Positions 10,274-12,070 of a stretch of 36,780 bases of DNA are shown here, in pieces. The position numbers and the translations under genes were made by a program. The notes beneath the pieces were generated by a model. The model worked only from the letters and a program-made list of their open reading frames with translations. It did no database searches and was not told where the DNA came from. Each line of letters begins with the position of its first letter. Position 1 is the first letter of the stretch. Source of the DNA: Candidatus Omnitrophota bacterium (GTDB taxonomy: Bacteria; Omnitrophota; Gorgyraeia; Aquiviventales; Aquiviventaceae); assembly GCA_016209275.1 (NCBI GenBank), contig JACQWM010000060.1, positions 1-36,780 of the forward strand, read 5' to 3'.

Positions 10274-10304
10274 CCTGGATTTTTGCTCCTCCTGGATTTT
10301 TGCT
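10274..10304. repeat. Direct 14-bp repeat with 17-bp period upstream of nrtR
   Basis: CCTGGATTTTTGCT occurs at 10274-10287 and 10291-10304. The second copy ends on the first T of the -35 of the nrtR promoter. T-rich direct repeats immediately upstream of a promoter could act as an UP element or be a slippage duplication. Confidence 0.75.
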
Positions 10305-10355
10305 TGACAAAGTGTCTGGGGCACACTATATTTATTAGTGTAGGTCATACACTAA
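10304..10355 (+). promoter_or_regulatory. nrtR-nadA promoter with two NrtR-type operators
   Basis: TTGACA (10304-10309), 17 bases, TATATT (10327-10332). Two copies of AGTGT-N7-ACACT are present: 10311-10327, filling the spacer and touching the -10, and 10337-10353, covering the transcription start. They are 26 bp apart. The second extends to TTAGTGTA-N5-TACACTAA and ends at the ATG. Repression by the NrtR protein encoded next is inferred from position and from the known autoregulation of NrtR operons. Confidence 0.75.
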
Positions 10356-11051
10356 ATGACGGCCTCCTCCAACGGGCAGCTCAGCAAGCAGGCGATCGCC
10401 GTGGATGTCGTGTTGCTGACCATCCAGGGCGGCACGCTCAAGCTGCTCCTGGTTAAACGAAAGCAGGCCCCGTATCGGGGGGCCTGGGCCCTGCCCGGGG
10501 GGATCGTGGGCGCTGAGGAATCGGTGGATGCCGCCGCCCTGCGGGAGCTGCATGAAGAAACGAACATCGGCAATATTTATCTTGAGCAGCTCTACACCTT
10601 TGGCGAGCTGGCGAGGGACCCGCGCGGGCGGGTGATCACCGTCGCCTACTACGCGTTAGTGAACTGGCAGCAAGTGCAGCTGAAGGCCAGGCAGCGGGTA
10701 GCTGAGGCGATGTGGTTTCCGGTCAAGCGCCTGCCGGAGCTGGCGTTTGATCACCGCCGCATCGTGGATTACGCGCTGGAGCGTCTGCAGAACAAGGTGA
10801 ACTACACGACGGTCGGGTTTCAGCTGCTGCCGAGGGAGTTTACGCTGACCGACTTGCAGCGATCCTATGAGGTCATCCTCGGCCGGCGGCTGGATAAGCG
10901 GAATTTCCGGCGCAAGATGCTGCAGCTGGGCATCCTGCGGGGGACGACGAGGTTTCAGGCCAGCGGCCGGCAGCGACCGGCGCGGATGTACACGTTTACG
11001 GAGCCGAAAGTCGTGAAGCTGCAGGAAAAAGGGATCATCGTGCCCTTCTAA
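10356..11051 (+). CDS. nrtR: NrtR-type Nudix transcriptional regulator of NAD synthesis
   Basis: 231 residues. The N-terminal Nudix domain (about 12-145) has the box GGIVGAEESVDAAALRELHEETNI, with the acidic REL-EE core kept but the box Gly replaced by Asn70. The C-terminal region (about 150-231) is a winged helix with FTLTDLQRSYEVILGRRLDKRNFRRKML, the NrtR/YjhB-type DNA-binding part. NrtR proteins repress NAD biosynthesis genes and sense ADP-ribose through the Nudix domain, usually without hydrolysis. Its position eight bases upstream of nadA and the two operators at the promoter fit this role. There is no Shine-Dalgarno. Confidence 0.9.
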   Translation: MTASSNGQLSKQAIAVDVVLLTIQGGTLKLLLVKRKQAPYRGAWALPGGIVGAEESVDAAALRELHEETNIGNIYLEQLYTFGELARDPRGRVITVAYYALVNWQQVQLKARQRVAEAMWFPVKRLPELAFDHRRIVDYALERLQNKVNYTTVGFQLLPREFTLTDLQRSYEVILGRRLDKRNFRRKMLQLGILRGTTRFQASGRQRPARMYTFTEPKVVKLQEKGIIVPF

Positions 11052-11059
11052 CCGACGCC

Positions 11060-12070
11060 ATGGACACGCAGACCATCACGCCAGCGCTCCTCAATGGCAA
11101 CGGCCATGCGGCCCATGGCCAGCGGAGGAGAGACGCCGCAACCAACGGTCGAGGAAGCGGCGACTTTCTCAAAAACAAGATCCGCAGGCTCAAGCAAGAG
11201 CGCCAGGCGATCATTCTGGCGCACAACTATCAAGAAGGTTCGATTCAAGATGTGGCAGATTTCGTGGGTGATTCTCTTGGACTTGCTCGGCAAGCGCAAG
11301 CAACCGACGCCAAGGTGATTCTCTTCTGCGGGGTGCACTTCATGGCCGAAACCGCGGCCATGCTCTGCCCCGACAAAACGGTGCTCATACCCGATCTCGC
11401 GGCAGGCTGCTCGCTGGCGGACATGATCGTCCCGGAGCAGATCAAGGCGTGGCGAGGCAGGCACCCGGACGGCGTGGTGGTGTGCTACGTCAATACCTCA
11501 GCGGCGGTCAAAGCGGAGTGCGACTATTGCGCCACGTCGACAAACGGCGTCAAGGTCATTGAGCATATTCCGGAGGAGAAGGAGATCTTGTTCGTGCCGG
11601 ATTATTATTTAGGCAGCTATTTGAAGGCGAAGACGAAGCGGAAGATCCATCTCTGGAAAGGCTACTGCCCGGCGCATGCGGCGATCCTTCCCGAGGAAGT
11701 GGATCGCCTCCGCGAAGAGCATCCGGACGCTGAGTTCCTCATGCATCCCGAGTGCGGCTGCCTGACGAAACAGATGAACTTGGCCGATCAGATCCTCTCC
11801 ACGGAGGGCATGGTCCAGCACGTGAAACGCTCTCCAGGGTCGGAATTCATCATTGCCACTGAAACCGGACTGCTGAACCGATTGCAGACGCAGTATCCTG
11901 AGAAACAGTTTTACCCCGCTAGCCGATTCGCCACCTGCCACCACATGCAACGCAACACGCTGGAGAAAGCGTTCATGGCGCTGGTGACCATGCAGCATGT
12001 GGTGACGGTGGATCCGAAGATCGCCGCGCGCGCCGTCCTGCCCATCCAGCGCATGCTGGATATTGTCTAG
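11060..12070 (+). CDS. nadA: Quinolinate synthase
   Basis: 336 residues. NadA condenses iminoaspartate with dihydroxyacetone phosphate to quinolinate, the precursor of NAD, using a [4Fe-4S] cluster. The three expected ligand cysteines are in AAGCSLADM (Cys117), MHPECGC and ATCHHMQRNTLEKA. AIILAHNYQ, VADFVGDSLGLA and FCGVHFMAETA are family motifs. The first 35 residues are a low-complexity extension (NGNGHAAHGQRRR) not usual in NadA, so a later start is possible but no better ATG with a ribosome binding site is seen. It follows nrtR by eight bases and must share its promoter. nadB and nadC are not in the window. Confidence 0.95.
   Translation: MDTQTITPALLNGNGHAAHGQRRRDAATNGRGSGDFLKNKIRRLKQERQAIILAHNYQEGSIQDVADFVGDSLGLARQAQATDAKVILFCGVHFMAETAAMLCPDKTVLIPDLAAGCSLADMIVPEQIKAWRGRHPDGVVVCYVNTSAAVKAECDYCATSTNGVKVIEHIPEEKEILFVPDYYLGSYLKAKTKRKIHLWKGYCPAHAAILPEEVDRLREEHPDAEFLMHPECGCLTKQMNLADQILSTEGMVQHVKRSPGSEFIIATETGLLNRLQTQYPEKQFYPASRFATCHHMQRNTLEKAFMALVTMQHVVTVDPKIAARAVLPIQRMLDIV

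Follow-up and report, generated by a model that had tools for sequence, protein, structure and literature searches.

The nrtR and nadA genes in the DNA analyzed here (36,780 nt from an uncultured bacterium of the Omnitrophota; hereafter the window) form a real, conserved and well-explained NrtR control unit of an already known switch type, in which two operators of the sequence AGTGT-N7-ACACT lie on a single promoter. We consider it likely that this unit is an autoregulated repressor circuit that is opened by ADP-ribose. In such a circuit, NrtR dimers would sit on both operators, the dimer on operator 1 covering the −35/−10 spacer and thereby excluding RNA polymerase, and the dimer on operator 2 covering the start site and leader and thereby blocking open complex formation or promoter escape. 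From what is described for the NrtR proteins of Shewanella oneidensis (SoNrtR) and Mycobacterium smegmatis (MsNrtR), we infer that NAD turnover would raise the level of ADP-ribose, which would bind to the Nudix domain and take the dimer off the DNA; nadA and nrtR would then be expressed, and quinolinate and NAD would rise. NadA would probably be fed by NadX and not by NadB in the window's family, and the pair would control nicotinate and nicotinamide salvage through pncB and pncA in other families of the Omnitrophota.

All features of the unit are located on the forward strand. Operator 1 (positions 10311 to 10327, AGTGTCTGGGGCACACT) fills the spacer between the −35 hexamer TTGACA (10304 to 10309) and the −10 hexamer TATATT (10327 to 10332), overlapping the latter by its first base. 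Operator 2 (10337 to 10353, AGTGTAGGTCATACACT) covers the leader and the presumed transcription start, which would lie at about 10339 judging from the position of the −10 hexamer, and is separated by 2 bp from the ATG of nrtR at 10356. The centres of the two operators are 26 bp apart, and their edges 9 bp. With 11 of 12 consensus bases and a 17-bp spacer, TTGACA-17-TATATT (10304 to 10332) is the sole promoter-like site in the region. A preliminary description of this DNA had put one operator between near-consensus hexamers and the other up to the ATG, and the coordinates agree with this. As a separate observation, CCTGGATTTTTGCT is repeated with a 17-bp period just 5' of the −35 hexamer (10274 to 10287 and 10291 to 10304); its conservation in relatives is not evident.

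The nrtR gene (10356 to 11051) encodes a protein of 231 amino acids, and nadA (11060 to 12070), which starts 8 bp 3' of nrtR and has no separate operator of its own, encodes a quinolinate synthase of 336 amino acids (Pfam NadA, 1e-116; NCBIfam, 4.7e-123). That the former is indeed a Nudix-winged-helix protein of the NrtR type, as had been proposed, is borne out by its matches to Pfam NUDIX (5.9e-20, 72.1 bits, cut-off 21.1) and NrtR_WHD (3.1e-25, 88.5 bits, cut-off 27), and by an AlphaFold model (mean pLDDT 83) that most closely resembles AraR (5bs6 and 5dd4, TM-score up to 0.84), followed by SoNrtR (3gz6, 0.77). The score of 184.1 bits against the NCBIfam NrtR equivalog NF050029 is below the cut-off of 400; this is a database equivalog model that is narrower than the NrtR family and not a defining feature of it.

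The layout of the unit is conserved. We examined the regions upstream of nrtR in 13 relatives with NrtR proteins that are 64–85% identical (L011 to L023) without requiring the operator pair to be present. Twelve of these relatives are recorded as Omnitrophota or Omnitrophica, and one (L021) is recorded as Planctomycetales, its coordinates being those of a genome (G222) of the window's own family. Both operators were found in all 13, with 0 or 1 mismatch per site, and nadA follows nrtR in 12; the contig of the remaining relative (L012) ends there. The proposed autoregulated nrtR-nadA unit with its own operators is supported. Loci found by pattern, which unlike the 13 obtained through the protein match the motif by construction, bring the number of distinct promoters compared to 24. 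TTGACA is retained in nearly all of these orthologous promoters, operator 1 starts 1–2 nt 3' of the −35 hexamer in each of them, and in all 24 listed GTGT and ACAC occupy the corresponding positions of operator 1. The two blocks are fixed or nearly so, with one departure in operator 2, and the inner N7 is variable.

Among 384 Omnitrophota genomes, the tandem pair was present in 16, of which 11 belong to the window's own family, and a reversed control pattern in none; since assemblies already retrieved through the protein recur among these genomes (G300 and G001, for instance), the counts overlap. In 20 genomes tested directly, NrtR_WHD was found in five of six with the pair and was missing from 12 of 14 without it. 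In the one genome with the pair and no NrtR_WHD match (G367), the pair is located at a contig end and is followed by the beginning of an nrtR-like gene. Neither the pair nor a detectable nrtR is present in three members of the own family (G283, G312 and G394), the absence of nrtR not being certain because these genomes are 78–90% complete. A tandem match in G152, lacking TTGACA and followed by an unrelated gene, was taken as chance. By their conservation, the twin sites are to be regarded as functional. The motif recurs in relatives, at this promoter and at other NAD genes, so that the refuting outcome named in the preliminary description, its absence from both, did not occur. A second operator pair was seen in G159 (L183, contig C34), at a contig end that also holds the start of another nrtR-like gene.

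To which other genes the control extends depends on the lineage. In 14 genomes, the exact motif mostly occurs just twice per genome, at the nrtR-nadA promoter; extra exact matches are mostly intragenic or alone, the exception being a second nrtR-nadA copy in G008, and the lone ones in G002, G004, G012 and G013 were taken as chance. Since the nadC, nadX, nadE and nadD loci of these 14 genomes (about 169 kb) contain no site with one mismatch or fewer, the regulon in the window's family comprises one promoter. In other Omnitrophota families (f33 and f19) the pair lies 5' of pncB (G265), pncB-nrtR-pncA (G336) and nrtR-pncB (G127), linking the motif to NAD metabolism. A near-copy of the pair precedes nrtR-pncA in a paralogue of G008, and in G304 (f47) a pair with a weaker second site precedes nrtR-nadA. 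Thus the motif, which the preliminary description had suggested looking for at other NAD genes, was found at pncB and pncA units of other families or paralogues, and not at nadC, nadX, nadD or nadE. In G127, the pncB gene 3' of nrtR is split across two frames (L181, 2309 to 3040), either because of an error in sequencing or because the gene is broken. Three NrtR genes are carried by G008 (L106, L165 and L166), two of them in nrtR-nadA units and the third in nrtR-pncA; a twin or near-twin operator accompanies each, and the genome may be a mixed bin.

The window's own genome contains nadC, nadD and nadE, with nadC unlinked to nadA, and no recognised nadB; the sole nadB match turned out to encode a flavoprotein of the fumarate reductase/succinate dehydrogenase type. 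An aspartate dehydrogenase that scores above the Pfam cut-off, and with 223 bits against an NCBIfam cut-off of 267, is the best NadX candidate and probably replaces NadB. The unit had been described as reduced to nrtR-nadA without nadB or nadC. This stands, with the apparent gap explained because iminoaspartate probably comes from NadX, and nadC is located elsewhere. The probable nadX (L149, 1456 to 2262; G000:C15) adjoins a panC-like gene and is near neither nadA nor nadC. No pncB was found in the own genome or in any of the 12 tested genomes of its family. Among the NAD genes examined, only the NadA step is under predicted NrtR control in the own genome. That pncB was not found in the 12 tested genomes of the own family but is present in f33 and f19 suggests that NrtR regulates whichever route supplies NAD, bearing in mind that pncB is present by definition where the pair lies on it in f33 and f19, and that G008 has both. 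A single operator architecture precedes the de novo gene nadA in part of the lineages and the salvage genes pncB and pncA elsewhere, apparently matching the NAD route encoded in the respective genomes.

The effector of the circuit is argued by analogy. ADP-ribose releases MsNrtR from its DNA (PMC6800001), and it is the reported effector of the NrtR proteins of Shewanella, Synechocystis, Mycobacterium and Streptococcus sobrinus, so that it may well be the inducer of the window's NrtR. Similarity does not reveal the effector, because the closest solved homologue, AraR, is an arabinose sensor. We regard it as rather unlikely that the same operators and the same repression respond to NAD (or NADH, NMN or another pyridine nucleotide), which would place nadA under direct end-product control. 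NdnR of Corynebacterium, also of the NrtR family, does respond to NAD (PMC4666351), and end-product control would be sensible for an enzyme early in the de novo route in a family without detected pncB, but the effector reported for the four NrtR proteins just named is ADP-ribose.

A variant of the ADP-ribose circuit, which we consider distinctly improbable, is that Omnitrophota NrtR hydrolyses its own inducer and so limits induction, with the two unphased operators blocking polymerase binding and early transcription in steps. A degraded Nudix box is reported for most NrtR proteins. In the window's NrtR the box (10500 to 10566; GX5EX7REUXEEXGU) is complete except for the last glycine (N70), and REUXEE is unbroken in 10 of 14 Omnitrophota members. 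Cleavage of ADP-ribose is conceivable because the catalytic glutamates are all kept in most members, with only the terminal glycine changed.

It is very improbable that the regulator is a sugar sensor of the AraR/XylR type with nadA as a chance neighbour. AraR of Bacteroides thetaiotaomicron (BtAraR), itself of the NrtR family (PDB 5bs6, 5dd4, 5ddg and 5deq; PMC4666351), is the best match in structure and sequence, and Pfam AraR_C also scores on the nrtR product. However, almost all relatives have nadA after nrtR, and pncB and pncA carry the same operators in other families; the genes under the pair (nadA, pncB and pncA) are NAD biosynthesis or salvage genes, as expected of an NAD regulator. 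BtAraR was crystallised on GCAAAAGTGTTACTTTTACACCCATGC, has the operator GTGT-TACTTTT-ACAC, covers 25 bp as a dimer, and reads GTGT with Lys179, Arg180, Asn181, Lys184, Lys204 and Arg205, Arg183 being a further contact (PMC4666351). In the alignment (with a tag offset of 3 in the AraR numbering, deduced from the published residue names), K181, R182, N183, R185 and R207 correspond to Lys179, Arg180, Asn181, Arg183 and Arg205; Lys184 is conservatively replaced by R186, and the base contact Lys204 differs (Q206). K181 to M188 are invariant in 22 homologues. BtAraR thus shares with the window's system the Nudix and winged-helix domains, GTGT-N7-ACAC, most DNA-reading residues and tandem operators, and differs in sensing L-arabinose and controlling arabinose genes, whereas the window's unit has nadA as neighbour and an operator inside the promoter spacer. 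Outside the phylum, 67 homologue loci, most of them from Bacteroidota, were compared, and 50 have a GTGT-N7-ACAC core within 400 bp upstream; the motif is therefore not novel but an operator in wide use in this branch of the NrtR family. Binding of NrtR to the twin sites is therefore well supported by analogy, through the AraR operator geometry and the mostly conserved base-reading residues, and the recognition-helix signature DKRNFRRK, linked with this operator, should be useful for predicting other NrtR regulons.

Tandem sites are already known in the NrtR family because AraR has them: the araM operators of BtAraR are 24 bp apart and gave two gel-shift bands (PMC4666351). Repression had been described as possibly cooperative. 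At a spacing of 26 bp, two footprints of 25 bp (the size of an AraR dimer) just abut. Among the 24 promoters, the centre distances are 27 bp (n = 7), 26 bp (4), 25 bp (1), 24 bp (2), 23 bp (6), and 32, 33, 36 and 40 bp (one each). Since distances of 23–40 bp correspond to helical phases of 0.05 to 0.81 of a turn, and so span most of the helical turn, a strictly phased dimer-dimer contact is unsupported, and two additive blocks would be compatible with the variable spacing. It is also very improbable that NrtR activates this promoter. Activation by factors that bind in the spacer is known, for example from MerR, but near-consensus hexamers with a 17-bp spacer need no activator, and the presumed start site lies under operator 2. 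Moreover, the NrtR-family members cited here are repressors (PMC4666351, PMC6800001).

The window contains exactly two exact matches to AGTGT-N7-ACACT, at the positions and the 26-bp distance that had been claimed. That they are two palindromes arisen by chance can be dismissed, given no match in 100 dinucleotide shuffles of the window, an expectation from base composition of about 2e-7 pairs at 17–45 bp spacing, and the conservation in relatives. A third exact match in the own genome (C26:15161) lies within a reading frame and was taken as chance; sites with one mismatch number eight, versus a total of 19 for the reversed control pattern.

The present data assign a probable NAD-control circuit to Omnitrophota, knowledge of which comes almost exclusively from metagenomes. 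SoNrtR (PDB 3gz5, 3gz6 and 3gz8), of which the Nudix domain was solved with ADP-ribose bound, resembles the window's NrtR in fold, domain order and NAD regulon, and differs in its recognition helix (QGKSFRRR versus DKRNFRRK) and in a more degraded Nudix box (RKLAEK versus RELHEE). MsNrtR is likewise an autorepressor adjoining de novo NAD genes, but it has one 23-bp palindrome (GTTTTCGA-N7-TCGAAAAC) and controls nadA, nadB and nadC together (PMC6800001). SsNrtR of Streptococcus sobrinus controls salvage genes including pncB, as in the f33 and f19 operons, and differs in having an N-terminal winged helix and in controlling salvage genes only (PMC12735969). Finally, we observed that in most members of the own family only a few bases separate operator 2 from the start codon (window positions 10337 to 10358 and orthologues), leaving the usual Shine-Dalgarno place only inside this operator, and that the pncB-type promoters have GGAGG 3' of operator 2.
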